Part shown: in pieces, positions 11,300-40,629 of the stretch
How positions within the stretch are numbered: position 1 is the first letter of the stretch
Layout of the letters: each line of letters begins with the position of its first letter
Assembly: GCA_038503065.1 (NCBI GenBank)
Contig: JBCAMK010000001.1
Span: 2,790,001-2,854,000, forward strand
Length of the DNA: 64,000 nt
DNA from: Paragyromitra xinjiangensis
Lineage: Eukaryota > Ascomycota > Pezizomycetes > Pezizales > Discinaceae
Direction of reading: 5' to 3'
Made by a program: the position numbers and the translations under genes
Notes under the pieces: model-generated
What the model was told of the DNA's origin: nothing
Seen by the model: only the letters and a program-made list of their open reading frames with translations
Databases searched by the model: none

Positions 11300-13317
11300 C
11301 ATCAGCAAAAAACGGAAATGCCGTAAAGTCCCTCTGGACGCCAAAATGCCATGGCGGAAACCTACCCTTCTGGACGCAGTGTGGTCCAACTACCCGTCGT
11401 CCAGAAGACATGGGGTAGGAGCTCTGGCCGTCTGAAAGGCAGCGCTGTAGGCTCTGATCGTCTGGATGAGCTCTGGTCGCCTGGGCGGGCTCTGGTCGTC
11501 TGGATGAAGCCTGTCGACCTCTGTACGTCCGGGGGAACCTCTTGCGGGGCCAGCACATTTTGGTAGGTTTGGAATTGCACGCTTTGCCTGTATGGCTCGT
11601 ATGGCTCGTATGGCTCGAATTCGTTCTATTGATTTATTTACTAATCTATGGATCTATCTATATATATGTGTACAAACATTTACTACCCGCAGCGAATCGA
11701 CCTATTGGCGCAGGCGGCGGAAGCTGCAGCAGCGAATTGACCATATGGCGGAGGCAGCGGAGGCTGCAGCAGCAAATCGACCATATGGCAGAGGCGGCGG
11801 AAGCTCAGGCAGCGGATCGACCATGTGGCGGAGGCGGAGGAAGCGCAGGCAGCGAATCGACCATATGGCGCAGGCGCAGGAAGCGCAGGCAGCGAATCGA
11901 CCTATTGGCGCAGGCAGCGGAAGCTGCAGCAGCGAATCGACCATATGGCGCAGGCTGCAGAAGCGCAGGCAGCGAATCGACCATATGGCGGAGGCAGAGG
12001 AAGCTCAGGCAGCGGATCGACCATATGGCGCAGGCAGCGAATCGACCTATTGGCGCAGGCAGCGGAAGCTGCTGCAGCGAATTGACCATATGGCGGAGGC
12101 AGCGGAGGCAGCGGAGGCTGCAGCAGCAAATCGACCATATGGCAGAGGCGGCGGAAGCTCAGGCAGCGAATCGACCATATGGCGCAGGCAGCGGAAGCTG
12201 CAGCAGCGAATCGACCATATGGCGCAGGCTGCAGAAGCGCAGGCAGCGAATTGACCATATGGCGGAAGCGGCGGAAGCGGCGGAAGCTGCTGCAGCGAAT
12301 CGACCATATGGCGGAGGCGGAGGAAGCGCAGGCAGCGAATCGACCATATGGCGGAGGCGCAGGAAGCGCAGGCAGCGAATCGACCATATGGCGGAGGCGG
12401 AGGAAGCTCAGGCAGCGAATCGACCATATGGCGCAGGCGCAGGAAGCGCAGGCAGCGAATCGACCATATGGCAGAGGCGGCGGAAGCGGAGGCAGCGAAT
12501 CGACCTATTGGCGCAGGCAGCGGAAGCTGCTGCAGCGAATTGACCATATGGCGGAGGCGGAGGAAGCTCAGGCAGCGGATCGACCATATGGCGCAGGCGC
12601 AGGAAGCGCAGGCAGCGAATCGACCTATTGGCGCAGGCAGCGGAAGCTGCAGCAGCAAATCGACCATATGGCGGAGGCGCAGGCAGCGAATCGACGACCT
12701 GCCAGAGGCTGGCAGCGAATTTAGCTGCCTCCTGAGCTCGCTTAGGCGGAAGCAGCGAGGCAGGCAGTGTGAATCGAACCGAGTCTAGGAGGCATATCAG
12801 CGGGAGTCAAATAAACGGAAGCAAGACGTTACCTAGGAGGCTCTTGGGAAGCAGAGCTTATTGCATGAGGCCTAAATCTCACGATGTTAGTAGTGTTGCG
12901 AGGTAGAGAATGGGTGGGAGAGAATAGGGGGAAGCAGATGGGAAGGAATAGGGGGAGGTGTCTTAGTAGGCGTTGCTTAGGCGTTGCTTAGGCGACACCT
13001 AAGCGAAGTTTGAAGATTTTGAAAATCGCTAAGTGCCTAGGGTCAGGGTTTTGACTTAGCGAAATAAAAAAAAGTTCCGGCAGCTACACGCATCGGGAGG
13101 GTGTCGGACGCACACAGGTCGGTCGGTGAAAGCACGGGCTTCTAGAAGGGCGCTCGGGTGTTGGCTGGTGGTAAGAGTTAGTCAGAGCGCGTCTAGATGC
13201 AGCACAGGCGCAGGCAGGCCGTCAGGAGGGGTTTGAGAGGCAATGCCCGTCTTCTAGAGGGTCAAAATGCCATTATACAATGTTACCCTTCTGGATGCCT
13301 TTTTTTTTTTACTGATG
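11300..13317. mobile_element. Non-autonomous element E2
   Basis: It begins CATCAGCAAAAAACGG, ends in T10 ACTGATG, and has a clean TT duplication on each side (11298-11299, 13318-13319). Layout and unique parts match E1 and E3. It shows the undisturbed state of this family. Confidence 0.9.
11689..12720. repeat. 40-bp tandem repeat array in E2 (about 25 units)
   Basis: Same unit as in E1, more copies. The upstream unique part (YTACCCGCAGCGAAT junction) is shared with E1 and E3. Confidence 0.9.
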
Positions 13318-15767: not shown

Positions 15768-16976
15768 TTATTCCCGTGCCTCTCTTTCCTGCTCAAAGCT
15801 TTCGACAGCGCCGGCGAGGTCTACCTGCATGTCATCAGTGGTCGGAGGGGCGTTAAATGCAGTAGTCGGAGCGTGGGCATCATCTGCGGAAGCAGGAGGG
15901 GTATCAACCTCAGTCTCGCTCCCACTTTCTACCTCTAAGAAAAGGGTCGGGATGTTGACAGGTGCCTTCTGCTGCTCCAGATCCTCAGGATGAGGAGAAT
16001 CTGAACCCGTTCGTCTGCTCTTGCTTCGGGGATGCTGGTAGCCTCCCCTTTCGAGCTCTCGCACGCGCTTGCGAGACCGCAACTCCTTCATAGGATCCTC
16101 CTCCTCGTTATCACTCCAAGGAGTTGTGGGCTCGTCCACAGGCTTCTTAGTCGCTCTGAAGACCTTCAGCTCCACCTCGCGGCGAATCGCCTTTAAAATC
16201 TCCACCTCCCAGCCTGGAGCTCTCATTGCTATGCTCTCCCACGTGTTGCAGTGCCTGAGCCAAATCGCTATTAAGGATGTCAGTCTTCCTGCTAAAGGAG
16301 GCAAGGAGCGCTAGGGGAATACCAAAGCAAGTCTCGCGTGTGAAGTCAACAGGATCCTCATATATACCAGTCGTCCAAGCCTTCAACGAGTAATAGAGTG
16401 CTGCCGTGATAAGGCATACAAACTCCTTATTGATGGAGGATATAAAGGACGAATCAACGCGTCCCCTCATCCTCCTCCCCTTATAGTACTTGAGGAATAT
16501 CAGCTCCGCAATGGCATCATTCAAGAAGCGATTGCCACAATCCTATCACGATGATTAGCCTCCCGCAGTATTACCACTTGATGTGACGTACCTCCATGCT
16601 AGCTTCCATGCACATAAATCTATCCTTAGCTAATAGATAGTCAACTTTATTCCTCACGTTCTGAGGATTCTGGTCATCCAGCTCATACAGCCGGACGATA
16701 TTTGCCTTCGCCGCACAGACAACATGAGAGCGCACCCGGGAGTGATGTTGGCTGATCTATAGCTCGTGTAAGGATATACAGCATCAGGAGGATATACAAT
16801 ATCCTTCAGGGGAAAGGGATAATTACCTGAGTTTGATTTTCACCTGTCAGCTCTAAGCTCTCTAGGGCAACTAGTGTTGCAAAATGATGGATAGACTTCT
16901 CTGGGTGGGAAATGATTACCTGACGGGTACAGGAAACCTCTAGAGGAGCCTGTCGCTCTATATCCTGCGAAGCTTT
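15768..16976 (-). pseudogene. DUF6532-like gene of element O, 3' part (split by G)
   Basis: Exons 16976-16827, 16756-16592, 16542-16323 and 16267-15768 read in frame, the splice sites leaving matching phases. Together with 33762-34538 they make 1812 bp (603 aa), divisible by three when the TT duplication is counted once. The region from NIVRLYELDDQNP to LKAWTTGIYEDPV follows the layout of the fungal DUF6532 domain: a helical block, then FLNDAIAELIF and ITAALYYSLKAW. The acidic tail (to 15768) carries a basic cluster (RSRKRVRELERG). Function unknown. The gene is interrupted only by element G, so loss of function is recent. The domain name is from memory of the family pattern. Confidence 0.65.
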
Positions 16977-16998
16977 CATCAGCAAAACCGATTCTCGG

Positions 16999-17854
16999 CT
17001 CCCGGGCGCTCCTGGACCCTCATGGACAGCGCGGACCGGATGGAGGCAAGTGCCAGTCCATGGAACAGGCATATCCCGTGGATCGTGGCACACGGACCCA
17101 GTACTTCACCGCACAGACCCCGGACCCCTGTGGACCACTTCATGGTCCTCCTGGACCGTCGTGGACCTTCACCCCTTCTTCTTGGACCACCGTGGTGCTC
17201 CTGTAGCATCTGTTGCTCTTCCTAGATCACGAACCATTCTTTGGGGACCGCTCTGGACAAGTGACTCCTTCTCCCTGGGATACCGTACCCCAATCGATAA
17301 CTTCCGGACCGTAGGGTCTGTCTCTTTGATCCCTGGGACCGCATCCCATCGTTCCTCAATCCCTTCGAGTTCCTGGTTTTCTGCTCGTTTTTCCTGGATC
17401 GATGATCTCCAGCTCCAAGGACTCCTGATAAAGCTTCGCATCTTCCCGGATCGATGATCTCCAGCTCCAAGGACTCCTGATAAAGCTTCGCATCTTCCCG
17501 GATCGATGATCTCCAGCTCCAAGGACTCCTCATAAAGCTATGCATCTTCCCGGATCGCCTTGTACTTTACGTGTATCTTCGCGGACCCCTCTCCTAGATT
17601 TCCGGACCATCCGCGAAACCACGCACAATGACGGACCCTTCTGGTTTTGACCCCGAGGTTCTGGCTTGGTTTGACTTTTGGACCGTACGTTTCTATTAAA
17701 ATACTCCGCCTATAATACAAAATGACCCTAATACGCGCATATTCCGACACCGTTGCCTCCGTCTATTATTATTCGCTTACAAGATATATCACTCAGGCCC
17801 CTCCACTACCCATTATTGCCTACCCTATCAGTACACTAATTCGTACATGGACCC
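16999..17854. repeat. Left subterminal region of G with three 52-bp tandem units
   Basis: GGACC/GGTCC-type motifs recur throughout. From 17396 to 17555 the unit GGATCGATGATCTCCAGCTC... repeats with an exact 52-bp period (17396, 17448, 17500, partial at 17552). No gene is supported. Confidence 0.75.
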
Positions 17855-19666
17855 CTATTCCCCGTCGCTATCTCTCAGGTCCTCGATATCGCTACCTAGT
17901 TCATCCTCGTACCCCGTGGTCTGCACAACGTTATCCTGCAGCCGGAAACGTTTCTTGATGCCTTCTTCGATCTTCCTGAGAACGGCATCTTGTCTTGTCT
18001 TCGACATCTAGGTTCATTAGTTATTGCTCTAGAGAGATTGCAGATTACTCACCTTCAACATAGTATTCTTATAGCGCTCATAGTGATCTATGGTACGGTC
18101 AGCCAAAGAAAATGTGACGAATGAGCATTTTTACCTATCATCCGCTCACGTTCGAACCCGATAACAGGGCTCGCCTTGACTCCTGTCAACTCATAGTCCG
18201 TCAATGCACACCGCAGCGCGGTACAGACCACTAATACTGTCGGCCAACGAATCGGCAGAAACTGATCAGCGGTGACATCCATTCGACCTAGGGTCCTTTC
18301 AGACCCAAAGAAGTGGTCCTCGATGAGGTGCCTGATAGCCGGATGCATGAACCAAGCTTTTTTCGCAGGTCCGTCGCCCTTGCTTTGTTAGTCGTTCACA
18401 TGGACTGCTTTGGGCTTCGGTACTTACGGATTGTATCTCCTTAAACATAAATCTATCGCCCTCCAGCAACTCTCTGACAGTTGAACGACAGGCCTCGGGA
18501 TTGTGTACTCGTAATCCATACAAAACAATAATCGAATCACGTGCGTTGCCAACCAGGTACAATCGGTACGCTGCAATCCTTTTCTTCAACTAAGGTTCGT
18601 CAGTACAAGTTATCGAGAATGATAGAGAGAACTCACCGCCTTACAAGATACAGGGTCCGGCTGCCTATCTGGTTGTATGGTCTCCGGACCTCCTGGCCTC
18701 ATCACATGATCGTCGAGAATGGCTGTTTCGTAAAACGATAGGGCCGAGCTCCACGCTTTTACGATCAATGCCTCCTGGCCAGATGGGCCCGGCCAAGGCT
18801 GGAACGAAAGTACGTCTGCGTGGAGGAAACTCTTAGCATACTTGTAGACAAACCTATTTCGCTGAGGCATCGCGATCGAATCAAGGTTCTCATCCCCCTC
18901 CTCACTACTTCGACGCTGCGGCGGTGGGGTAGAATTAGTACTACTTTGCCCCGAGAATTGAGACGATCCGTCCCCCAGACCCTGCCTTCTGCCGTACCCT
19001 CCGCTTTCGTTTCTTGGAGTACGCCTGCCATCGGACTCTAGTTCAGGGGTAGAGGTACCAGCTCTGAGACTGGAGGGCAGTGAAGATGTCCTCGCCATTG
19101 GAACCTCCTGAGAGGCTGCAAGACGAGATGGTCCACGGTGCGTAACAGGACTCCAACCAGAGTCCGTTTGGCTGACTATTAGCCGTTTCGAAAAATTAGC
19201 ATGCCCAAATAACAGGGGGGCATATTTACATACGTGTTGGGCTCCGCGGTTCTTCGCTTTCTCGTTCGTCGTCCTGTCTTTCTTGTTCTTGTTCTTCTCG
19301 TTCTTGCCCCCGCTGTTGCTCCGGCTGCTGTTGCTGCTGTTGCTGCTGTTGCTGCTGTTGCCCCTGCTCTTGCTGCTGTTGCCCCTGCTCTTGCTCTTGT
19401 TCCTCCAACTGTTCTTGATTAGGTCTTTGGGAATCTAGGTCATCCTCGACGCGTCGAGCGGAGATCCGTCTCCTAGTCCGCGGCTCTTCTTCGTCTAACA
19501 CATATCAGCGAAGTTAACGAACTCATCCCTCTAGGTGCTTCCACTCACCTCGATCAAGGCCTCGTTTTCGTTGGACCGGCTGTTTGGCTACTCGAGCGGC
19601 TACGGCCCCATTTGCCCGGGTCTGGCGGCTCGTTTGGCTGTTACCTGTTAATTGAGTCTCGCTCAT
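17855..19666 (-). CDS. DUF6532-like protein of element G, 503 aa
   Basis: Seven exons: 19666-19549, 19494-19234, 19175-18637, 18589-18428, 18378-18135, 18087-18053 and 18007-17855. Phases agree at every junction and the sum is 1512 bp. The N-terminus is basic (QPVQRKRG), followed by a long Gln/Glu tract from a CAG-type microsatellite (19310-19400). The C-terminal half (residues 240-450) holds the DUF6532-like core: ARDSIIVLYGL, then MHPAIRHLIEDHFFG and PTVLVVCTALRCALTDYE, ending in a basic helix. No frame break is visible, so it may be functional. Function unknown; Gln-rich and basic parts suggest a nuclear role, which is inference. Its paralog in O occupies the same position in the cassette. 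Confidence 0.75.
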
Positions 19667-20167
19667 GGTGCTATCAGTTGCAATATCGTTATGGTGGTAA
19701 AGGATGTGGAGTGCTCTGCTCTGCTGTGCTGTGGTATGGTGGTTCAGGCTCCTGAAAAGGGGGCAGAAAACGTGTTTTTGTTGGCCTACGCTTACGTAAA
19801 GCAGACCTGATGTCTCAGTTCGACTGGAGCTTTTGAGTAATGGAATCCCTCAGCAAGCAGGCGAGTGCGGTATCTGTGGACCCTGCAATTGGTATTTCGA
19901 CAGCCTCCCCACTGAGTTTCGGACAGAAAAACAGTTACCAGGTGCACTGGATGCGGGGTATGACAATCAACGCGAATACGAGCACAAAGGTAGCAGTCAA
20001 AGTAGATGAGACCCAAGAAACACATGCTTTAACTAAGAAAGGCCGTCAAACAGCTTCAGGGAAAGAGTAATCCGTGGTGGAGCTTAGGAGCGATGGGCTG
20101 TTCTCCAGGGGGGGAGGTTAATCTATTTGGATATAATTGAAGTGACAACACACGCTGTGGTTGACTT
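19667..20167. other. Intergenic stretch in G
   Basis: No gene supported. It would contain the promoter of the DUF6532-like gene and the 3' end of the Rpt6-derived ORF. Confidence 0.4.
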
Positions 20168-21307
20168 CTAAACTCTTCCGACAACGCGGACTGCAGCGGT
20201 AAGCAGCATATTCGGAAAAAGGCGACTCACGATCAGGCGAGAATCACGATCGTGTTTGTTTAGAACCTTGGCCGTTGCAGGGTCTGTTGTAAGTTCCGTT
20301 AGCATACCAAGAATAAGAAAAAGGTTTGCAGCCGTATTCAAATCTTCCTGCGTTACGTGGATTCGTCGCTCTCGGAGAGCGTACATCCCTGCCTCGGTGT
20401 ACACACCCTTCAGCTCAGCGCCGTAGCATCCGTTCATTTTCTCTGCGATCTTCTTGAGATCACGAGTTAGGACACCGAGAATAGGACAAGGACGAAGGTT
20501 TGCAGCCGTATTCAAATCCTCCTGCGTCACGTGGATTCGTCGCTCTCGGAGAGCGTACATTCCTGCCTCGGTGTACACACCCTTCAGCTCAGCGCCGTAG
20601 CATCCGTTCATTTTCTCTGCGATCTTCTTGAGATCACGGGTTAGGGCACCGAGAATAGGACAAGGACGAAGGTTTGCAGCCGTATTCAAATCTTCCTGCG
20701 TCACGTGGATTCGTCGCTCTCGGAGAACGTACATTCCTGCCTCGGTGTACACACCCTTCAGCTCAGCGCCGTAGCATCCGTTCATTTTCTCTGCGATCTT
20801 CTTGAGATCACGGGTTAGGGCACCGAGAATAGGACAAGGACGAAGGTTTGTGGCCGTACCCAACTCTTCCTGTGTTACGTGGATTCGTCGCTCTCGGAGA
20901 GCGTACATCCCTGCCTCGGTGTACACACCCTTCAGCTCAGCGCCGTAGCATCCGTTCATTTTCTCTGCGATCTTCTTGAGATCACGGGTTAGGGCACCGA
21001 GAATTGGGCAAGGACGAAGGTTCGTAACCGTACCCAACTCTTCCTGTGTTACATGGATTCGTCGCTCTCGGAGAGCGTACATTCCTGCCTCGGTGTACAC
21101 ACCCTTCAGCTCCGTACCGTGGTATCCATTCGTTTTCTCTGTAATCTTGAGATCGACCATGCTGGAACGGCCTCTCGTGGAACGGAGAGCATTACCCGTA
21201 TTGTGGGTTCGCATTTTTGGATTCACGAATGATAGGTGCCTAGAAGGATCGAGTGACCGTCTATGATTGGTTAGATCAGCAATTTTGCTACATTCGGCTG
21301 CGACCAT
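20168..21307 (-). CDS. ORF of five tandem proteasome Rpt6 C-terminal fragments
   Basis: A 379-codon uninterrupted frame contains five copies of a 58-residue unit. Each holds [18 protein letters not shown] followed by [19 protein letters not shown]. This is the small C-terminal helical part of the 26S proteasome ATPase Rpt6 (Sug1), where yeast and human keep a nearly identical sequence. The AAA ATPase core is absent, so no ATPase activity is expected. A linker ([14 protein letters not shown]) not from Rpt6 joins the units. The first unit is most diverged. It looks like a captured host-gene piece amplified in frame inside transposon G. Expression is unknown; if made, it could mimic an Rpt6 surface, which is speculation. 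Confidence 0.8.
20327..21170 (-). repeat. 174-bp tandem repeat, five copies
   Basis: Equivalent points at 20327, 20501, 20675, 20849 and 21023 are each 174 bp apart. The period is a multiple of three, preserving the frame. Inner copies are nearly identical and the outermost (21023-21170) is diverged, as in amplification from one end. Confidence 0.92.
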
Positions 21308-21424
21308 ACTACATTCGGCCTAGACCGCGCCTTGTCGTTTCATCCCACCAATGCGACTAATTCAATTTGAGCTATTAAAAATATGAATATAATTTATTAA
21401 ACTAAAAGAAATGACTCGATTGAC

Positions 21425-24400
21425 TTAATCAGATGTAATGCCGGACCCTACATCGCGTGCGGTCCGCCTGGATTTCTCGATCAGTGCGTTCCGGGTCTGG
21501 ATGAGTTTGACATAGGATACTTTAGATCCAATGAGGCTATGAATGACGCGGGCTTCGAATCTGGCGTGTAATTTCTGCAACTCTTGCGCGCGGTCGTCTA
21601 CCCCTCCAACACAGTGGAGAATCCATGCTTGCGTGTCTCGAAATTGGCAGAGGCGGCGGACGCGTGCAATTGCGTGGCATTCCTCATTGTGACTCCAGAA
21701 CTTTTGGAGAATAATAACGTGGTTCGCGGCTTCCAGGTTCGCACCGATCCCGCCAAGAGCTGGTGTAAGTACTAGTATACTTGGTTTTGCTGCGTCTGCA
21801 AATTCGCCAACCAAAGTTCCCCGCTCTGCTGCGCCGAGATTTTTGCTGAGATGAAAAGCTTCCACGTTCGGATGAAAGTTGCTAAACCACCACATGAGAA
21901 GGTGTGCTTGCCCAGGCAGTGCGGTGAAAATGACAGCTTTATTTGGGGGTCCGTTTTCGACAGGCGTTTCCAGCATCGGCAGAAATGTGGCGGCTAACCA
22001 GCGGAAGATAGGTCCGCCTTTGAAGGTCGGACCATTCCAAACGGTCCGGTATTGGGTCCGGTCGGCGGCACCCTCGTCATAGGTGTCACCACCTTGTGCA
22101 AGGTCGCTCGAGAAACATGCCAAACGCCAGCTGTGGATGACTGACAAAAATTTATCCCCCTGAACCCTCTTCATTTTGCGTACCCAGTCCTCCAACCACT
22201 TAGCTTCACCTGGTGTGTATGTCAGACGTGGTCTGTGAATGGTGTGAAGAGGCATCTGTATTAACAGTTTGCCATCCGCATCCTTAGTTTCCGTACAGCG
22301 CCGCATCACCCAAGGCCAAACACACTTCTTTAGCTCTGCGTATATATCTTCCTTAGGGGCTCCAAGCTTGCCGTTGGTGATAATCTCTTGCAATCGCTTG
22401 GGTCCGTGGTCCGAAAGCCTGGCCGAGCTGCACTGGCAGAAAAGCCAAGAGGTTTGGACGGCCCAGTCGCCAATGGAGTGGTGCATTGGCGTACCTGTTA
22501 GTTGAATCCTATACGGTGCATCGAGGTTAACTAGTGACTTATAAGTTTCAGTACCGATATTTTTGGCCCAGTGCGATTCGTCGAAGATGGCCATTCCAAA
22601 CTGGCATCCTTTGAGAGAGTTCATGTATTTGCTCATCCAAGTGAGATATGACACTAGGTAAATGACGTTTCCGCGGTCACTGGCCTCTTCGCTGATGTTT
22701 ATATCATCAGCGGTCAGTGAGGACTTGTTGTTGATTCTTTGTAATTTGAGGTTGGTGCTAGTGGTCATTTGCTGGATAGCTTCCCCCCAATCGCTCATAA
22801 GGCTCGAGGGAACGACGACTAGAGTTGGCCTGCTGATGATTGGCCCGTCTTTTTCTAGTAGGGGACACCACGTCTCCAATTTACTCAAATTCGTTCCGTA
22901 ATATGGGATATGCCCATCCTTTTGAGAGAGATGCAAGAGGTGTTTTATATGCAGTACCGCCCCCAGTGCAGTGAAGGTTTTTCCCAGACCCACTTCGTCT
23001 GCAATTAATGCACCCGTAAGTCCGAGCCTATCCTCTTGCATGAAGCGCTTAAGCACCCAACTAATACCCGAAACTTGGTGCGGCAGGAAACCTACGGTCG
23101 GGATACCCGGAACACTGAAGACCTTGTCACTGATATCCTCCTCTGTGGGTGTTAAGGGTTTGGATCCTACCCTTTCAAGTGCTTCCTCAAAATTCTCGTG
23201 TTCAAAGTCTTTATTCATATGGCTTTGGCATAGCTCATAAAGGTCTGCTTCTTCTTGGTATTTCAGGCTTGGGGTATCTGACCCAGTTGCGCCAGGGAAC
23301 GATCTGAGTTCAGCGGAGTAGCGCGGATCTGAAAGATCATCCTTCCGGAGCATCAGCCTATAAGCCATTTCCTCGACACTATCTCTCGTGATATTTCCTA
23401 TTACTGTTTAGTAAATGATGTATATTGGGGTATTGTACATGTGCTAACTAACCAGGTCCGTCACCACCTGCTCCGCCATCACTCCCTCCACTACTACCCG
23501 CTCCATCACTTCCTTCATCCTCTTCACGGGCCCTCGCAAGTTGAAGCTTTAATAAGCTCGTTTTGGCTTTCACCCTCATCCGCTTGGGTGTGGTGGGGTC
23601 CCCGAGTACCTTCTCCAGTTCTGCCATCCTTGCGTCCTCATCCTTCCGCTTCTGGATGGCGGCGAGCCTGGCTTCCTCTTCCTTTTCCTTTTCAATGCGT
23701 AGCCTCTCCGCCTCCACTGCTTCCTCTCGACGGGCTGCTTCCAGACGGGCTACTGTTTCAGGATCCACGGATTCTTCGATCGCCCATTTGGCTGGTTCTG
23801 TGGATACGTAGGGTCGCCCGGTGAGCAAGACAAACCTAGCTTTTTTCGTACCCTCCATATTTTCTTGATAGTTACTCTGAACCTCAATGATTGCCGTGTT
23901 CCATGAGGTCTGGCTGTAAATGGGTGCTTCGGTGTTCGAGCCAAAATCGATATTCATGAGCTGAGAATAAACTCTGGAGAGGACTGGAATCTCAACTGTT
24001 ATAGTCAACTGTCCGGTGAGGTTCGTTTGCTCACGCACCCATTTGACTAATTCTGTGAAACTGCGAATAGCTTGATACTCCACGCGCCAGCGCTCGTCCG
24101 TGGTTCCGTTCTGAAGTACACACACTAACATTGGGTAATCGAGTGTAGGATACTCTATCCTACGGACCTTAGAGTCCCTACTGTCTTCTGAAGTGTCTGC
24201 GGGGCGCTTGCCATTGGTATTGGTACCATCTTCGCCGGTAATGTTTTCAGCAAGGGTCCTCTCGGCGGCAGCTTTTTCGGCGGCAGCCTTTTCGGCGACA
24301 ATTTTTGCTGCGAGTATTTCGGCAGCCCTTTCTACGGCAGTTTCAGGTGGTTCGGCTGACGCCGAATCCCTTGCAAGGGCTCGAGTCTTTTTAGTCTGGG

Positions 24401-24725
24401 CAATGAGGAAAGCGTGACCGTGACCGGCCCGCAAGGTCGCATACTCGGCACGAGCTTCCTGATCGTCGTCGGATCTACTGTCATGTGCTGGCTTCCAATT
24501 GAGAACGTTCCATTGCGTCGGGTATGTATCATACATCTCCTGAATGCTATCATACCAAATCTTCTGCTTCCCGGCTCTCGTGAGTGTGGTGTAGGCGAGG
24601 CCTGGCCTACTTAGAATGAAATCTTTCTTAAATGAAGAAACCCATTTTTTATATTCAGGGTCTTTTTCGTCTTGAAAGCCCATCTTTTTGATATATTCAA
24701 TCGCCGGGAAGGTTTTAGGAGGCAT
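21425..24725 (-). CDS. NTD-SNF2 ATPase A of element G, 1081 aa
   Basis: Two exons (24725-23453 and 23397-21425) join across a 55-bp intron (GTTAGT...TTTACTAAACAGTAATAG) in matching phase. Residues 1-110 form a helical N-terminal region ending EYATLRAGHGHAFLIAQTKK-like; residues about 190-310 a second conserved block; 320-420 a coiled coil with a Gly/Ser tail. The SNF2 motor follows: motif I ADEVGLGKT (about 557-565), motif II DESH (697-700), motif III TGTPMHH, then the C-terminal helicase lobe. Motif VI reads ARVRRLCQ where active motors have RxGQ, so activity may be reduced. SNF2 proteins move DNA or nucleosomes using ATP in the nucleus. Tandem paralog of gene B. Confidence 0.88.
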
Positions 24726-24776
24726 AGGTGTGATGTGGTGTGATGTAGGCGGGTACGGCTGTGGTCTGAGTATGGG

Positions 24777-24960
24777 TACGACTTGGGTACGGATATGGTG
24801 TGTACGGTCCGGTTTCGAGGAGTGTAATGGGTATGGATACGACTTGTGTACGGATATTGTGGGTACGGTCCGGTTTCGAGGAGTGTAATGGGTATGGATA
24901 CGACTTGTGTACGGGTATTGTGGGTACGGTCCGGTTTCGAGGAGTGTAATGGGTATGGAT
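24777..24960. repeat. Three 61-bp tandem repeats upstream of SNF2-A
   Basis: Exact 61-bp spacing (24777, 24838, 24899) of a unit with GTACGGTCCGGTTTCGAGG. They start 52 bp upstream of the SNF2-A start codon, so could act in its promoter or leader. GGTCCG also recurs in G's subterminal regions. Confidence 0.8.
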
Positions 24961-25524
24961 ATGGGTGGTAGGTATGGTAAGGTTTTTGGGGAGTGGATGA
25001 TTATCAGTAATGATTATGAGTACGGGTAGAGTAATTGATAGTAGTAATGTGCAAGTGCGAAAGTTGTATCTGATCTGATTTTGTGATCTAAGAGTGACAA
25101 GTGCTTTATATACTACAGCGGGCAAATTCAAGATGACAGCGGAATAGAAGTTTCGTTTCGCAAACAAGTTGATTGAGGTTTTGGGCGGTTTATTTTTAAC
25201 TTGAGACTGGACTTCTTTGACGTTAGTGGGTTGGGTTGGTGTGTCACGTGATAAAGGAGCCCCTGCCAGGGCCCAAGGCGTGTGCTTGGCCATCTCTAAT
25301 TCAACGTCTATCTACCAGATCTACCGTTACCAGATTTTACACAAAGAAAAGCTCTATTAATAAAGACCAACTCCGAACTCCCCGCTTCCCCTAGGATACA
25401 ATTATATTCACGGTAGCGGTGCAAACAGCCCGCACCGAAATTCCACTAGGTATGTTAGCGCTCGACGATAAAACACCGCACCTAATGCCTAAGCAGCCTC
25501 ACCTGGTTCCCAGACCCCCAAGCT

Positions 25525-27905
25525 TCAGTCGATAGTAATGGCGTCCGCCTTTCCGTCATTCGCTGCAGCATCCTTCTCATTTACCCCCTTGATTTCCTTG
25601 ACCCTGGCGGCTCGAGTATCCACCAGCTCCGCGTACGTGTAGTCTGTTCCCATGAGCCCATGCATGATACGCGCCTCAAACCTCCCACGAATTTCTTGCA
25701 GCTCTTGCGCCCGGTCGTCAACCCCATTCGCACAATGCAAGGTCCACGAAGTTGGTTTGCGGGTCTGGCCGAGGCGATGGATACGCGCTACCGCCTGGCG
25801 CTGCTCATTCAGATTCCAGAATTTTTGAATGATTACTACGTGGTTTGCAGCCACAAGGTTCAGTCCGGTCCCGCCGAGAGCAGGAGTGAGAAGGAGTATG
25901 CTCGGGGTCTTTGCAAGGGCGAAGCGTTCTAGCAAATCGGTACGTTCGCCCGACTTGAGCGCTGAGTGGTAGTGGAAAGGTATCACTCCTGGATGGAAGG
26001 TGGCTATCCACCACGTGAGCATGTGCGTTTGCCCAGGTAGTGGGGCAAAAGCGACCGCTTTGTTTGGCTGTCCACCTTTCACAGACCTGCGTAATATTGG
26101 TAGGAATTCGGACTCCAGCCAACGAAAGACAGGCCCTCCGGTAAACGTCTCTGGGTCCCATTCGGTACGAAAGATAGTCGAAGGACCTTCAACCGTATCG
26201 CCGACGGTAACAAGGTCCGCTGATAAACACGCCAAACGCCAATCGTGAACCGTCGCGTGAAACATATCTCGCTGCTTTTCTTTCGTTAACCGGACCCACT
26301 CCTGGAGCCATTTCTTCTCACTCGCTGTGTACTCTAGGCGGACCTCCACGCTTTTGAGTTCGGGGACCCTCACGAGATCCGTACCGTCAGCACTTTTTGT
26401 TTCTCCCCACCGGCGTATGGTCCAGGGCCAGACACATTTCTTGATAGCTCGGTATGTCTCTTCTTTAGACACATTTTTGTGCTTCGCATCATGGACTGCC
26501 TCCTCTAGCCTAGACGGCCCGTGTATAACAAGACTGTCCGCGTCGCACTGGCAAAACAACCATCGAGTTTGGACCACCCAGTCCGCAACAGTATGATGCA
26601 TCGGCGTCCCCGTCAATTGGATCCTGTAAGGCGCGTCAAGCTCCATCAGCGAGGCAAACCCCATACTCCTTACATTTTTGACCCAATGTGATTCATCGAA
26701 GATAGCAATACCGAATGCAGCACGTTTCAAGTCCGTCTTGTATCTGGACCGGAAGGTGTTATAGGATACCAGGTATATAATATTCCCGCGGCCCGGATGA
26801 TCTTCATCCAAGTTGATCTCGGAAGCTTTGGGCTTATAATTCGGGCCGATATGCTTTAATTCCAGCCCGGTGCCTGGCAAGACCCGGCTGATTGCTGACT
26901 TCCAGGTCTCGATGAGGGATGGCGGCACGACGATTAGCATCGGCCGGCCAATTATATCCGCATCCACTTCCAGCAGCGGACATTCGGAGTCTAGTTCTTC
27001 CAACTTTTTACCTCCATAGAACGGAATTGGTTTTCCATCTTTAGCGCGTTGGAGAAGCCATTTTATGTGAATGACCGCACCTAGCGCCGTGTAGGTTTTT
27101 CCCAAACCCATGTCGTCGGCAATCAATACTGCGTTAAGGTCAAGGCCGTCTTCCTGCATGAAGCGTTTGAGGATAAACCCCACACCCCACACCTGGTGTG
27201 GTAGGAACTTGGCGTTAGGGATCCCGAGTATTTCGAGCATAACGTCACCGATATCTTCCGGAGCTGAAGCCAATGCACGCGCTCCGAGCTGTTTCACTGC
27301 TTCATCGAAACACTGGTGCTCAAAATCATTGTTCAGGTGATCTGCGCAAAGGCCTTGGAGGTCCGACATCAGCCGGTACTTGGTTTCGACGCTATCTTCG
27401 GCGATATCCTCGATATCAGCGCCCCCTTGGTTCTCGTGCCGGTAGCGTACGGCAGAGTGGTCCTGCTTGGGTTCGAGAATCGCATTCAGGGCATCATTCA
27501 AGGGTTTTCCTTGGTCTGCATTTAGGTGAGCTGCGTCAGAACATTTAATTCCTATTTAACATGGCTAACCGTATGAAATAATATCACTAACCGCTTACGC
27601 CACCCCGTTTTTCTTGTTCCTCCGCCCCACCATCCCCCGTACCCTCCTTATCCTTACCCTCCATACCCTTATCCTCCGTACCCTTGCCCTTCGTACCCTC
27701 TTTATCCTTACCCTCCGTACCCTTATCCTCCGTGCCCTTGCCCTTCGTGCCCTTCGTGCCCTCCGTACCCTTACCCTCCGTACCCTTACCCTCCGTACCC
27801 TTACCCTTCGTACCCTCACCATCGGTACCTTCATCACTGGTACCTTCATCACCGTTACCCTTCGCACCCCCTCTATCCTTGCCCTTTTCCACCCTGCTTT
27901 CCTGA

Positions 27906-27942
<37 letters not shown>

Positions 27943-29326
27943 TGTCGCCATGCTGGTGGTGGCGGTAGTCGTCGTCGTCGTCGTCGTCGACGTCGTCGTC
28001 ATCGTCATCTTCATCATCCTCCTCGTCGCCGTCATCCATATTGGCCCGACGACTTTCCTTCATTTCCTCCCTAGCGTACTCCAAATCCTCCTTCTCCATG
28101 ACCGTCAGCAGCTCCGTCACCCTGCTAGTAGCTCGTGCCGCCGCCGCTTTCCTGGTCTTCGGATCCAAGACGATCGCCCTCGCTTTTCGGAGCTCTTCCA
28201 AATCGATAGCCCTCTTATCAGCACGCTTCTTTTTCTTCGCGGCCTTTGCAGCCTTGGCGGCTTTTTCTGCTTCTTCGCGCCTCTTTGCCGCTTCAACCTC
28301 TGCCAACTCGGTTTCCCTCTTTTCCTTCTCCGCAGCTGCCTTCGCATCTAACTCGGATCGCGACTTTGCGGCCTCCTCTTGCTCCCCATCACCTCGGATC
28401 AACCTAGATGCGCGATCTGTGGCCTCTGGAAGTATAATTGCTAGGGCTAGAAACTTGAAGCTGTCCTCACCGGGGCCGAGGTTCATCTGGGCATTGAGTA
28501 CTGCAGTGTTCCACGCTTCCTGGGAGGAAATGTAGTGAGAGTTGACCGGTGCCGGGATTGCATCCAAATTGACCCCTAACATTTCTGCGAGGCTGCGATC
28601 ACGGATCACTACGTTTACTCGCGCCATGATGTCACAATTCAATCCGGTCTCGTAGCGTATCCACGTCACTAGGTCTATGAAGTCGGCAACATCTTGGTAT
28701 GCACGCAGACACCGAAAGCTCTCATACATGAGGACAACAACGAAATGGGGGAACTTAAGCGTAGGGTGTATTTTTCGCATTTTCGGCAAGGGGGCTGCAT
28801 CGTATCCGCCATCGTCGCTGTGAGGGCGTTTGGTGCCAGCACCGGACCTGTTAGCACCGGACCTGTTGCCAGCACCGGACCTGGAACCGGACCCTTTGCC
28901 GGACATAGGCCCAATACTACCGCCAGCACCAGCATCGTCAGCATTAGGCCTGGACCTGGCACCAGATTTAGTCCCGGCACTAGACTTGGGCCGGGAAATT
29001 GACTTAGAGCTAGCACCGGCTGCCTTTTTCGAGTTCCGCATCTTTTTCGTCTGGGCCGTCAAAAACGCATGCGCATACTCGGTCCTGGTTTTTCGGTTCG
29101 GGAATTTGTTAAGGTTCCAGACATCCGGATAGCGCTTGAAAATATCCTTAATACACTGATCCCATTCTGTCTTATCCGGTCCGAAGTGTTGACTACCCTT
29201 CTGGATTTCCTTCCGAGGCCCAAGAAATTCTTTTTTGAATGGACCAACGAATTGTTTCCACTCCGGGGAATTTTCTGACTTAAAGCCGAGCATATCGACA
29301 ATCTGTTGGCCGGTTATTTGTACCAT
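25525..29326 (-). CDS. NTD-SNF2 ATPase B of element G, 1246 aa
   Basis: Exons 29326-27592 and 27530-25525 join across a 61-bp intron (branch CTGAC) at the same place and phase as in paralog A. The N-terminal region (residues 1-110, MLGFKSENSPEWKQFV, ending EYAHAFLTAQTKK) and second block (about 190-320) match A. The linker is longer: Lys/Arg/Glu coiled coil, an Asp run encoded by about 27900-28040, and Lys-Gly-Thr-Glu repeats (27640-27840). The SNF2 motor looks complete: IADDMGLGKT (about 715-724), DESH (857-860), TGTPMHH and RIHRLGQ. This is the better candidate for an active remodeler. Whether it acts in transposition or in silencing escape is unknown. Confidence 0.9.
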
Positions 29327-29887
29327 GTTGGCTCTCTTGGGGTCTATCGCTCGCTATTTTACACTGGGTACTAGGGGCAATCGTAGGAGATAGATCTGAT
29401 TTGGCACGAAGTCGGCTTAGGGTCCCTTGTATGAAAATGGAACACGGTGAACTCACCAAAAGTGTGAGGGTTATTGCGGCTGTGAGGTCGAAGGGGGAGC
29501 GAAGAGACTCTTATAGTATGCTATCGCGGAAGCTTCCCAGGACCAGCTCTCAAACATGATGCCGAAAGGACCGCAAAGAGATCTGTGCTCTTCCCGAAAG
29601 CATGACGTTGATGCTGCAAAAGGCTCTGTGCTCTCAGAAACATCATGACGCTGTATACGAGTGAAAGTGGGGAGCAAACAGCCCAAAACGACCGTGAATC
29701 AGCTTCGGGAAGATGCTTCGAGCGATGTTCCTAGGTTAAAGCCTGCCGTTATTGTGTTGGAGGTTGAGGGGTAAGGCAAACCGCAGGGTTAGGGCTGCAA
29801 TATCTTGGCACATGATGATCGCGCGATTGGCGCGAGGCTTACCACCTCATCCAAACAAGGTCCGCCGCGGACAAACCAACAAACAGG
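29327..29887. promoter_or_regulatory. Divergent intergenic region between SNF2-B and transposase
   Basis: 560 bp separate the two start codons, on opposite strands. The same divergent layout occurs in element O (36507-37090). Probably a shared promoter; no motif is identified. Confidence 0.4.
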
Positions 29888-32800
29888 ATGGCTCGTACAA
29901 ACTGCTTATATTGCGACAAAAAATGCAAGTCTATTCGAGGTCTAGGCATCCACCTGCGGCATTGTACCGGGATTCGTCAACAAACTGACGCGGCTTCTGC
30001 CGCAGACCTCCGCGATCAGCCACCAGGTTTGATAACCAGCAAACCATACAAATCAATTGGCGATCTGACGGGAACGTAACATCTAGAGTTTGCTACCGAC
30101 ATGGGTGACTGGAACATCGATGGCGATGATGGTTGGATGGATAGTATGGTCTCCCATATGCTTACATTTATGAAGGCGTTCATACTAACTCGTGTTATAG
30201 TGGATGACGATCCTAGAGGAGGACAGCAGTCGACGGATAATGGTCAAAGGCCGCCTGTCGAAGACACACCTGCAGACCCACCCGAACCCGAGCAACCGGA
30301 CCTGACATGTACACCAGACCAGACCAAGACCTTCTGGTACACAACATCTGAAGGACCCGAGAGTGCGGGTAGGTCATATGGCTCAGCTAAAGGGACCTAC
30401 AAAAAGCACCTGGAAGACGACTGGAATCCGTGGCACCCCTTTTCTAACAGCAAAGACTTTGAGCTTGCAAACTGGATGACACAACATGGACTTTCAAAAT
30501 CAGCTATCAACTCATACCTAGACCGAGGTCTTGACGGGGATCAGTGCAAGTCTTTTCAAACTGCGGATGAGCTCTGGATAAAGTTACAAAACCTAGATTT
30601 TGGCCTAGGCCACGCTGGCTGGTCCCGAAAAGAATTAAGTACAGGTACGCTCTACACTAGGAACCTCCCGGAATGCATCAAATTTCTCCTTGGCCATCTT
30701 CCTTTCGCGGACCACATGGTGTACGAACCTGTACGTCTCCATGACACTCAAAATCGGCGGATCTATAATGAAATGTACTCGGGTGACTGGTGGTGGGAGG
30801 CCCAAGGCCATATTGCTGAAGGGGGAACTCTTGTACCCCTCATATGCGCGTCTGATAAGACGTGTTTGACAAACTTCTCTGGAGACAAGTCTGTATGGCC
30901 GCTTTATATCACTCTCGGAAATATCAGCAAAGAGATTCGGCGCGAGAAGTCAAAACTTGCATGGGTCTTACTCGCTTTACTCCCCGTACCCCCCAAGGAC
31001 CCCGAAAGTGGCTTCATACACACCTCTTGGCACGAAGCCATCGACAAAACTTTTGAACCCATTAAAGACCTTGATCTGGAGGGTCCGGGGTTTGAATGGG
31101 ATTGTGCGGATGGTCAGGTTCGTCGGTGTTTCCCGGTGATAGCTGCGTGGGTTGCGGATTACCAGGAGCATGTGATTATCGCGCGCCTGAAAAACGGTGC
31201 GTGTCCATCTTGCGAGATTCCAGTGGCTGATATGGGGCATGAAGACGGACCAATGTGTGGACCAGAACGAGATCCTAATGAGTATAAGGAGCTACTTGAA
31301 AAGTCTGAGACCGCATCTGGGGAGGTGCGAGATGATTCCCTCCAGGATCTTGCGGACCGCCTCGTTCTGCCCATGGCGAACCCTCTCTAGACTATCCACT
31401 GTGCAACGATACAAACTATGGATGGTTGATATTCTCCATCAGTTTTACTTGGGCCTCGTTAAGAAATTGATGGAATGGCTAATCCCTTTCTTGAAATCAA
31501 GAAAATTATACCAACGATTCAACAAGCGATTCAAGTCAATGCCGCCATATCCTGGATTTCAGCGTTTCACTAAGGGCTATAGTGACGTGAGCCAATGGCA
31601 AGGGAAAGAAATTCGGACTATGACGCTCTTTCTGCTCGTGGTTACTGGTCCGTTGCTAGCACCAAAATCGCGGACCCTGAGGGTGAAAGGTCAAGAGGAG
31701 TTGGAGGCCCTGAAATGCGTTAGGTCTTTATGCGAATTTGTCTTGGTCCTCCGGCAGCGAAGTCAATCTGACTACTCTCTTTCATTGTTGCAGCAGGGGT
31801 TGGTTACTTTTTATAAAACAAAGGCTGTGTTTCGAGGGACCCGAGCAACAGCAGCGCGAACTAAGGCCTTCAACAAGCAATGGGAGGAATTACTGGCAGA
31901 AAAGGGTGCCAAATGGTCGGAGAGGAAAATTGAAGTGGAAAAAAAGAAACTCGAAACCGAGCTTTACCATTTCTCATTCCCCAAGATGCATTTACCGAGT
32001 CATATATGCGAGAACATCCGCCGGATGGGCGCGCCAGATAACTATTCCACAGATATATCGGAACTACTCCATGTGGAACATGTTAAAGATGCCTATCGGT
32101 CTTCCAATCGTGTCGACTACGTGGAACAGATGCTGCGTTTTAACGATCGTCGGTCAGGTCTAGCATACATGGTCCAGATGTTAGAATACCTTGCCCTACG
32201 AGGGTACTATCTACCAGAGTCCGCAAAACTACTACGATTACAAGACTTAACTGCTCGGCGAGCGACTACACGGTTTAGACGACAGCGGGAGAAACTGCAG
32301 AGTGGGGCTGCTATTGTACCATCTGAGATTCCGACACCACGAGAGAACGGACGGGTAAACCAAATACCCGCACCCCGTCTAGCTGGGAAGGTAGTGGGTT
32401 CTATGACCTTAGGCGAAGCCGAGACTCGATACTCAATACCGGACCTAGCACTTTGCTTTCAAGATTGGTTGGTAATGAAGTGGGGAAAGGACTTGGTACA
32501 CAGAATATTCGGGCCCAGATGCCGTGATACGGCTAAAATCACAATTTATAACTCGGTATCTTGCTGGTATCAGCCGTTTCAGTATCCTGGGGGTACTGCA
32601 AAGCAGATGCTTCGATGTCCCAAAATAGGAAAAAAGAAAGAGAGTGGGAAAAACGCGGACCACACGATTTGGGTACGACAATACGACGAAACCGAGTTGG
32701 ACAGCTTCCAAGGACGAAAAGCATGTTTCCCATTACTCTACTTCGGTTTCCGACCACCAAACTGGGTACTAGAGGACCCTTCGGCAACTCCAGACAAGGT

Positions 32801-33089
32801 TCCAACAGTCGAAAAGGTCCGCCTGATTGGTACGCGGAAAATACGAGTAAAGACCCCTCGAGAACTAGGGTTTGCAATGGTGCACGGTACCAAATTCGTT
32901 AACCCAAGCAGCAAGCCGGACCCTGCCCACGGGTGTGTTGAAGTTGAGATAGACCCAAAGGATCGGTACGTAGCACCGGTAGAGAGCATTGAAGGCCCGG
33001 TCCAGCTTGTGGAAGAAAACGAGGAAACAAAGAAAACTTGGCTGGTGAATAATCACATCGATCTCGAAACATACTATTATGTCTATTAG
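29888..33089 (+). pseudogene. Plavaka transposase of element G, broken
   Basis: The N-terminus has a CX2CX12HX3C zinc-finger-like motif. A TAA at 30077-30079 (CAA in the other frame-consistent reading) stops it; the same frame continues at once. A 57-bp intron (GTATGG...ACTAACTCGTGTTATAG, about 30145-30201) follows. The body carries VPLICASDKTCLTNFSGDK, GACPSCE and, after a frame change at about 31380-31395, WMVDILHQFYLGLVKKLMEW, SDVSQWQGKE and WLVNNHIDLE at the end. These are hallmarks of the Plavaka transposase family. The stop and frameshift predict no full-length product. Paralogous with O's transposase but clearly diverged. Confidence 0.9.
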
Positions 33090-33737
33090 AAATGTAATTA
33101 GAGGCCACCTCAGTACGTGAGGAAAGTACAATGTCAAATGTATCCTAAGGTTCGCACAACTTGAAAGACGGTCCGGTGCGCTCTGAACAACGGACCTGAA
33201 GCATTCAGCAGGGTCCGGAACACAGCAACAGGCGCATGGGTACGCCTGGAGTCTGCCGCAATGGTCCATGGTCTGCGCTGCGAAGAACCAAAACAATCCA
33301 GTGATGTCCAAGAACTGACTCCCAAGGTAAGGGATACACAAGGACTAGAAGGCAAGGGTCCATGGTCCGCATGAATGCGGACCTGGGGGGGTCTGGATTA
33401 TTAAGGAGCGACAGTATCAACAAATGGAGACCCATGGAGCTAAGAGCGAAGGTCCATGGTCCGTGAATCAAGGCTCGTGGGCGGTCCATGGGACTCCACG
33501 AGAGTATGCGAGTGGTCCAGCAGGCTCCAGGAGAGTCCGCGAGGACGGGTGAATAATCCAGAGAGCGCCATGGACCATATATGACCAGTCCGAAAAGCAC
33601 CAGAGACATGATGGCACGGTCCTGTAGTGATCGCGAGGCCCCATGCGCTGCGTTGCATAACACAGGACGCTAATTTCCGGTCCGCGGAGCATCAAGCAGG
33701 TCCGGGAGAACCCGAAACCTCGCTTGCGGACGCCACG
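33090..33737. repeat. Right subterminal region of G
   Basis: TGGTCCG/CCATGGTCC motifs recur about every 40-60 bp up to the terminus, mirroring the left subterminal region. No gene is supported. Confidence 0.65.
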
Positions 33738-33759
33738 ACCAGAATCGGTTTTGCTGATG

Positions 33760-34538
33760 TTGGCCCAGGCAGCACGTATCCATGAGAGCAAGGTCTTAGG
33801 AGCGGGCAAAGGCTCGCAAAATAAGGTCTTATAGAAGATGTATTCTTGGGATGCGTGGACCAGTACCCGAATTGGGCTCTCCAGCGCATAGATGCTCCTA
33901 CCACGTCTTCTATTGAGGTTATCTCCAGGGAGATGCTCGCTATCCTCTGTTGGGGGATCTGACCCTTCGTCTGATGTATTGTTTGGAGAGTTGGCAGGTG
34001 TTGCTGCTACTGGAGGGCGTCCTGCCTTTTTTCGCCGAGCTGGCGTCCGCTCTAGAGGTTCGGGGACACGCTGCCTCACATCATTAGAGGCGATTCTCAA
34101 TATCCAAGGATTCACGATACCGTAGGGGGCACTTACTAAACGGGCTTGCCCTCGATAGACTGCATTACGAGCCATTTGAGTCGCAGCAGCCTGTATCTTA
34201 GTCTGGGACTGGGACCTCCTAGCTGGGTTCTGGCTCGGAGGGGGAGGCAGCTCATCCTCATAAAAGTCCTCATCCGCTGAATCTTCTTCATCTCGTTGCT
34301 CCTCTTGCTCCTCCTCATCCTCCTCCTCCTCCTCCTCTTCCTCTGCCATTTCCCCGCCCAATTCCTCTTCCTCTCGTCCCCCTACCCCCCTTTCTCTACT
34401 ACGCCTTGCACTTAAATTGGGAAGCTCAACATCCTGACTCGCAGCAGCACGCTTCCTTCTTCCAGCATTGGGACCAGGAGGGGGGCGAGGGGGTGGTGGC
34501 ATCCGTTTGCCTGCTTCGACGCTTCTTTTGGTCGTCAT
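33760..34538 (-). pseudogene. DUF6532-like gene of element O, 5' part (split by G)
   Basis: The ATG at 34538 opens a frame with a Pro/Arg-rich start, a long Glu run (residues about 65-90), and a Pro/Ser-rich linker. The folded part begins with IRVLVHASQEYIFYKTLF and LLSWIRAAWA. The frame enters G's terminal repeat at 33759, where similarity to the paralog ends; it resumes at 16976 as KASQDIERQAPLEV. It is the first exon of the 603-aa product described at 15768-16976. The paralog in G keeps the equivalent helix (ALIVKAWSSAL), so G cut the gene just before the conserved core. Confidence 0.7.
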
Positions 34539-34999
34539 ACTGATATTTGGAAATTAGAACGAAGTAGGAGTCACGGAATCGTTTGGAGTAGGAGGGTGCT
34601 GTGGAGTAGGAGGGTGCTGTGGAGAAGGGGAGTGCTATGGAGAAGCGAGACCCTCTAGAGGACTGGCTGAAGGGGGCGATTATAAGAAGAGAGGTCTGAA
34701 CTAAGACATACGATTGAATTAACCCTAACCCTGCCATAATTTGACTGACACAACGCTTCGACCTCTAAAAAAATAAATAAATAATACACAGACAACAAGT
34801 CTCAAAGGAAGCCCAATATCCTCCATATGCGCCAAAAATAAACGAATAGTACACGGATAGGAAATTTCCAGGATGCCAAGCATCCTGACGGTATCCTCCA
34901 TAAGCCCCCAAACGCCAATTCCCTTACCAAAGTAAAATCCTGCCAAATATTAGTAAATGTTAACTGAATTGTGGTGTCTAGATGGGATTATACCAATCC
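34539..34999. other. Intergenic stretch in O
   Basis: Contains short GGAGTAGGAGGGTGCTGT repeats at 34580-34650 and otherwise nothing recognisable. Confidence 0.4.
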
Positions 35000-39881: not shown

Positions 39882-40629
39882 TATTATCCTGCTAATTCTC
39901 ACTGTCAGGAGAGCTTACCTGATGGGGCTACAGTAGTCCCAGTAATCTGCGCGTCGGATGGTACACATCTCACCAATTTTTCAGGCGATAAGAAAGCTTG
40001 GCCAGTCTACCTGACGATAGGGAATATCCCCTCTAAGATTCGAAACAAGCCAACGAATATGGCTATGATGCTCGTGGCGCTACTCCCTATCCCCCCCAAA
40101 TTTGCTGGGCGCAGTGGAGAGGATAGGCTCCACCGGGAGGCTAATAGAGAGGTCTTGTACGAGGTGATGAGTATCCTATTCCAGGATATGAGGAAGGCAG
40201 GGCATACAGGAGTCATGTTGGTATGTGGGGATGCTCAGTATCGGATGTGCTATCCAATCCTTTGTGCTTGGATAGCTGACCACGCTGAGCACATCCAACT
40301 TCACAACCTACAGCAAAACGCTTGCCCAAAGTGCGAAGTCAGGCCAGACCAACTTGGTGAGCTAGTCAGCAGCCCAAAGCGAGACGATAAGGAGTATCAG
40401 AAAGTGGCTCAATCCTTTGCCGATTCTGGAGATCCTCAGGAATTGGAGTATCTCGTTGAACGAGGGCTGAAAGCGCCATTCAACGTCTTTTGGGGGATGC
40501 CACACCTCCCTCACGCTGGAGACCTTCATAAACCAGACCTTCTACATAATATATATCTCGGTATATTGAAGCATTTGATGGAGTGGATAGAGAGCTTCCT
40601 CGAGAAGCACAAGAGGCAGCAAGCATTTG

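Follow-up and report, generated by a model that had tools for sequence, protein, structure and literature searches.

Element boundaries and insertion site

The window analysed here is a 64-kb stretch of the Paragyromitra xinjiangensis genome (C1:2790001–2854000; 48.2 Mb in 22 contigs), and coordinates without a contig label refer to it. Reading of the sequence and genome comparison place a single insertion of 16.8 kb at 16977–33759, a DNA transposon of the Plavaka type, a name said to have been coined by Iyer and colleagues in 2014. An earlier note on this DNA had claimed exact ends for the element and, inside them, a Plavaka transposase and two open reading frames (ORFs) with SNF2 motors; 19-bp terminal inverted repeats (TIRs), TT target site duplications (TSDs) and three empty sites bear out the former, and Pfam matches (PF18759, PF00176 and PF00271) the latter. 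The main features are:

16975–16976: left TSD, TT
16977–16995, plus strand: left TIR, CATCAGCAAAACCGATTCT, 19 bp
18175–19434, minus strand: DUF6532 (PF20149) gene, several exons; domain match 18175–18369, upstream open frame 18610–19434
21425–23403, minus strand: SNF2b motor exon (PF00176 and PF00271), motifs V and VI altered
23404–23452, minus strand: candidate intron of gene b, 49 bp, phase 1, GTTAGT..AAACAG
23453–24725, minus strand: N-terminal exon of gene b (ORFx-b), putative PB1-like domain 23781–24167
25525–27515, minus strand: SNF2a motor exon, SNF2 motifs kept
27516–27591, minus strand: candidate intron of gene a, 76 bp, phase 1, GTTAGT..CTGAC..TGCAG; nearer AGs of the same phase are possible acceptors
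27592–29326, minus strand: N-terminal exon of gene a (ORFx-a), putative PB1-like domain 28400–28780; acidic, G/E/K-rich tail
30080–33089, plus strand: Plavaka transposase (PF18759), divergent from gene a; overlapping frames 30080–31390 and 31191–33089
33741–33759, minus strand: right TIR, perfect reverse complement of the left TIR
33760–33761: right TSD, TT

With up to one mismatch, the genome contains the 19-bp end 80 times, 37 of them forward and 43 reverse, and its reversed control not once, which rules out chance repeats as the origin of the ends. When the element is removed, the joined flanks (about 3,000 bp) match all three loci tested with the junction spanned (C14, 99.07%; C7, 99.53%; C2, 98.90%), and these loci are repeat copies in which the site is empty. 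A search of the assembly with the 19-bp end for other full copies, proposed in the earlier note as a check that the element is a unit, found the same cargo between the same ends in a second near-complete unit (C11:1526418–1543631, 17.2 kb, TA on both sides), and a related family, family B, carries the SNF2 gene too (see below). The C11 copy aligns over nearly the whole element, has the same genes and differs by 0.8% substitutions, showing that the element moves as a whole unit. The empty sites and this second full copy rule out an assembly chimera or the mere proximity of unrelated genes.

The earlier note had also held that removal of the element restores a host ORF. A minus-strand frame of the joined flanks is indeed open for 320 amino acids through the junction, but the ORF belongs to another Plavaka copy: the three empty sites have PF18759 matches about 4 kb away as well as PF20149 (DUF6532) matches, and the left flank in the window has the corresponding DUF6532 piece, so that the interrupted frame is an accessory gene of a resident element. 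Judged from these matches, the window element is a Plavaka nested inside a resident Plavaka copy, of which the following part lies to the right:

33762–34553, minus strand: 5' part of the interrupted DUF6532 gene of the resident copy; remainder left of the element (PF20149 match 16330–16545)

A second transposase piece in the right flank (39813–40661, PF18759 7.9e-60) is probably the resident element's. Arrays of a repeat of about 40 bp (GCAGCGAATCGACCATATGGCG...) were seen on both strands at 9436–10175, 11689–12688, 38412–39213 and 41223–42042; similar sequence is present at about 213.7–214.7 kb of C7, and this repeat adjoins other Plavaka-like ends.

Transposase and classification

The transposase matches PF18759 at 8.6e-60 in the window copy, where its frame is interrupted near 31.39 kb, and at 4.8e-67 in the C11 copy, where it is open for 1003 amino acids. 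The window element has the CATCA..TGATG termini given for PlavakaB in passages of Kojima 2025 (PMC12730594), and its 2-bp TSD falls within the 2 or 3 bp given there (TT in the window, TA in C11, AA in family B). CPSC and HLPSH, read by eye in the transposase translations without alignment to reference transposases, resemble the PlavakaB pattern C(2)C and H(3-4)H, which there precedes the last catalytic E. Ends, duplications and PF18759 transposase together fit a PlavakaB-type transposon by sequence, which we call family A. A Pfam scan of nine ORFs (E ≤ 0.01) gave no tyrosine-recombinase captain, the hallmark of Starships; a Plavaka transposase and TIRs were found instead.

SNF2 genes

The SNF2-rel_dom (PF00176) and Helicase_C (PF00271) domains were found by Pfam scan in two ORFs, SNF2a and SNF2b, each paired with an upstream ORF (27587–29353 with 25525–27555 for gene a, and 23448–25013 with 21425–23407 for gene b). 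The upstream partners, ORFx-a and ORFx-b, are about 30% identical to each other, and both junctions show the donor GTTAGT and a phase-1 intron. In gene a the donor is identical in three of four copies (window, C11 and C7; altered in a C10 fragment) and the acceptor in all four, and in gene b both sites are identical in the two copies available (window and C11). There is no in-frame ATG in the SNF2a exon ahead of the conserved RYRHEN segment, and in family B the upstream frame reads on into the SNF2 N-terminus. A profile built from window and family B sequences only recognised the N-termini of two Tuber SNF2 models, at 7.4e-8 for the middle domain of P0024 and at 5.9e-6 for the first domain of P0022, but did not match the single control P0020 (0.23). 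The introns of equal phase, the read-through in family B and the Tuber N-terminal matches make it most likely that each ORF pair is one gene, and the four ORFs at 21.4–29.4 kb are probably, to judge from the sequence, two paralogous spliced genes with one intron each. Four separate cargo ORFs were rejected on the same-phase introns, the shared donor and the missing early ATG of SNF2a. Of the "four non-transposase ORFs" in the earlier note the two SNF2 motors therefore stand, but the four probably reduce to two genes, and the element has a DUF6532 gene as well.

The predicted protein would most likely consist, in order, of an N-terminal helical domain, a PB1-like domain, a charged linker and the SNF2 motor. 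We have modest confidence in the modelled PB1-like fold of the middle part of ORFx. The first ORFx structure model was poor (predicted local distance difference test score 46) and its PB1 matches were all at E ≥ 0.15; ORFx had no credible Pfam name even at E ≤ 10, and a protein search with ORFx-a gave nothing at E ≤ 0.001 among 7992 candidates scored. Copy b keeps motifs I–IV and both motif VI arginines, with GGTGLNL turned into GGIGANL and the QAVARIHRLGQ stretch changed, and is probably a regulatory or partner paralogue. The term "remodelers" used in the earlier note is not supported as written, and motifs V and VI of copy b are altered.

Family B and relatives of the SNF2 genes

Family B is represented by an element at C7:210359–227301 with an AA duplication, whose ends come from a sequence scan. 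Copies on C10 and C22 start exactly at its left end (210359), copies on C13 and C14 end exactly at its right end (227301), and one on C3 ends three bases beyond; the C13 copy also has an SNF2 remnant and a DUF6532 match. Its gene order (transposase, ORFx-SNF2, DUF6532) puts the same kind of SNF2 gene in the same position as in family A, with transposase pieces 41–56% and SNF2 pieces 34–54% identical to those of the window element. Since a second, distantly related family carries the same kind of gene, the SNF2 motors seem to be equipment that the transposon has retained, not an accidental passenger. The opposite explanation, that the genes were captured once and carried along without use, can appeal to an earlier uptake of host DNA (an Rpt6 fragment that became a minisatellite, see below). 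Against it stand the shared gene and position in two families so far apart, and synonymous sites that are saturated while motor domain and motifs are still recognisable; we regard a passenger as improbable.

A protein search, in which the 7995 candidates sharing most words were scored, gave 507 matches. Among the best 120 of these, 25 relatives stand apart (E from 6.9e-260 to 3.6e-57, the next at 1.6e-24), and the five with a species name are all Tuber; in two truffle gene models the SNF2 motor is fused to these N-terminal domains in the same architecture. Among named relatives the closest include Morchella and Tuber, as would suit a pezizomycete host; a genome scan for HET domains gave 4 matches, and one for DUF6533 gave none, with its control equally silent. 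In a tree of 25 rows, from which P0022, P0024 and other short relatives were left out, support is 100/100 for the split between this group and four generic SNF2s, the environmental relative P0001 groups with SNF2a (92/85), and SNF2b joins these two (94/96). If the tree is right, the duplication into a and b would be older than the divergence of at least one environmental relative. Beyond this group the next genome matches are pieces of 24–38% identity, and no close host gene was seen. A close viral relative was also considered and rejected, with no match in viral_contigs by a scan sensitive to close relatives only.

Among solved proteins, an archaeal snf2/rad54-family helicase is the best match by sequence, and the first five also include Rad5 and a Rad54-like protein. 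These relatives favour a motor that leaves silencing untouched and assists transposition itself or the repair that goes with it, by displacing strands, clearing bound transposase or filling in the donor gap. The divergent arrangement of SNF2 gene and transposase and the similar degree to which both have diverged between families A and B point the same way. We counted how often the two occur together in a genome search that scored 123 of 168 transposase and 119 of 119 DUF6532 candidates, merged into at least 96 transposase and 83 DUF6532 loci. Of the 96 transposase loci, 7 have an SNF2 of this group no more than 12 kb away and 9 have one no more than 20 kb away, some of these neighbouring another element; 89 and 87 loci, respectively, have none, and the reaction itself therefore seems not to need SNF2. 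The methylation suggested by CpG-type differences (see below) also speaks against a role in transposition or repair, which we consider doubtful.

Selection and methylation-like pattern

Between the families the SNF2 genes show long-term constraint, with nonsynonymous divergence (pN) of 0.32–0.42 and saturated synonymous divergence (pS). When the window and C11 copies are compared, SNF2a has a pN/pS of 0.30 and SNF2b one of 0.58; under a CpG-biased spectrum 18 of 30 SNF2 differences are nonsynonymous against an expected fraction of 0.643 (P 0.38, no departure from neutrality), and 38 of 72 for all genes pooled (P 0.025). Near-neutral recent change in SNF2 is as expected of copies no longer acting. 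In alignments with a minimum length of 400 bases and a minimum identity of 97%, the two copies show 129 differences over 16,740 compared bases, 113 of these being transitions and 84 lying in CpG (44 C/T before G and 40 G/A after C). Repeat-induced point mutation (RIP) was rejected as the main source of the differences, with C/T before A found 4 times against 44 before G. The pattern is of the CpG methylation type, not CpA-type RIP, and suggests that the elements are methylated.

DUF6532 genes and a captured Rpt6 fragment

The DUF6532 domain exon of the window element covers 85 amino acids (1.1e-10). In a count of the closest DUF6532 up to 8 kb away, 50 of the 96 transposase loci have it 5' of the transposase and on the opposite strand, in divergent orientation. 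The 300 shifted control sets averaged 0.67 such loci and never exceeded 4, a null somewhat low in that it ignores contig ends and regional clustering of transposons; another 7 loci have a different arrangement and 39 none. The distance is 12.3 kb in the window element and 12.8 kb in C11 because the SNF2 genes sit between transposase and DUF6532. In family B the DUF6532 inside the ends is C7:226078, and the nearest in the genome count is a different one, C7:200194. These numbers suggest that DUF6532 is a second core Plavaka protein in this genome, and the pairing gives a domain of unknown function a likely role. A fragment of the proteasome subunit Rpt6 was captured and then amplified in frame as a minisatellite, also present in the C11 copy. 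The remaining features are:

16977–17136, plus strand: left subterminal region, 81–92% matches at 36 further places
17391–17557, plus strand: 52-bp tandem repeat near the left end, 3.2 copies
20321–21148, minus strand: minisatellite, 174 bp × 4.8, from the AAA-lid part of Rpt6; open frame 20168–21319

Other copies in the genome

The left end of the element as query gave 41 genome matches, of which 4 were long (≥98%, self included), 36 shorter (81–92%) and one an internal repeat; the right end gave 15, namely 3 long (self included), two C17 pieces and 10 confined to the flank. C7:1578879–1595550 is the right-hand part of an element with nested insertions, and left-end pieces lie at C7:1552727 and C19:990336. 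The 80 ends form 32 neighbouring inward-facing pairs no more than 20 kb apart. In 28 of these pairs the spacing is below 6 kb, with a median of 2.27 kb; from their ends and spacing, these short pairs are probably non-autonomous relatives. At C5:1267820–1283006 two such ends face each other across 15.2 kb. They enclose a transposase and a DUF6532 match separated by about 7.5 kb, the genome scan gave no SNF2 match between them, and the interval may hold other cargo.

Proposed role of the SNF2 motors

We propose, at about an even chance, that a long-kept, transposon-encoded PB1-SNF2 motor counters silencing by working on the chromatin of the element itself. The PB1-like part would link the SNF2 proteins with one another, with the transposase or with the DUF6532 protein, and this contact would bring the motor to the chromatin of the element, where ATP-driven displacement of nucleosomes or silencing factors could take place. 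The transposase might then be expressed and able to reach the ends, and the element would escape methylation-based silencing. In a more specific and rather tentative version, which we think unlikely in its full form, an active PB1-SNF2a and a motor-altered PB1-SNF2b would pair through their PB1-like domains into a two-part remodeler, recruited by the transposase or DUF6532 protein, that strips silencing from methylated copies.

Several observations would fit other readings. The near-neutral recent change of SNF2 and the altered motifs V and VI of copy b would both suit an unused passenger. The earlier note had looked to SNF2 genes outside the terminal repeats as evidence against its element, and two SNF2a pieces, on C10 (C10:1039256–1042537, L019) and C17 (1013 kb), do lie outside any ends found, yet both are torn inner fragments (equivalent to 24416–27767 and 24737–25791 of the window). 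The C10 frame is open for 676 amino acids (97%) outside identified ends, which, together with the size of the element and its several non-transposase genes, could indicate cargo that serves the fungus in repair or regulation. But the C10 piece is a torn fragment of 3.3 kb that includes parts of the neighbouring genes of the window element, and the next genome matches are too distant to point to a close host gene; a benefit to the host is in our opinion quite improbable. The C10 fragment adjoins a family B transposase in the same orientation.

Comparison with known systems

Like PlavakaB as described in passages of PMC12730594, the window element has a Plavaka transposase, CATCA..TGATG ends and 2-bp duplications, with candidate CxxC and HxxxH patterns. 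Some PlavakaB families are described there as carrying a TET/JBP accessory gene, read as counter-silencing, and TET/JBP genes in Plavaka and other fungal transposons are a precedent for anti-silencing cargo; unlike that dioxygenase, the accessory genes of the window element are two PB1-like/SNF2 genes. Cargo-rich, Plavaka-linked giant repeats are reported from the protist Amoebidium (PMC11244446) and differ from the window element, according to the passages on them, in carrying tandem clusters of intron-poor genes, with many tyrosine recombinases. The words SNF2, helicase and chromatin remodel are absent from the main text of that paper, and its passages on these repeats give no exact ends.

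With SNF2 family motors (solved Rad54-type, Fft3, Rad5, DDM1 and SWR1) the transposon proteins share PF00176, PF00271 and the SNF2 motifs, and they differ from them in forming the separate group of the tree above and in their N-terminal architecture. To our knowledge VANC, from the VANDAL transposons of Arabidopsis, has no SNF2 motor. As described in parts of PMC10398659, VANDAL elements encode their own anti-silencing factor, with the difference that VANC are sequence-specific binding proteins and the window element encodes an SNF2-type motor. No account of SNF2 in Plavaka was found in the literature searched, and the word is absent from the open-access main texts searched for it (PMC12730594, PMC11244446, PMC8955403, PMC8290104, PMC9674265, PMC7473861, PMC11075540, PMC12633428 and PMC6396904). 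An SNF2-bearing Plavaka is thus new relative to that literature, PlavakaB and cargo-rich Plavaka being already known. If true, an SNF2 motor shared by two divergent Plavaka families would add to the TET/JBP dioxygenases another, mechanistically different weapon against silencing, and it makes possible a direct test of whether an element-encoded motor opens the element's own chromatin.

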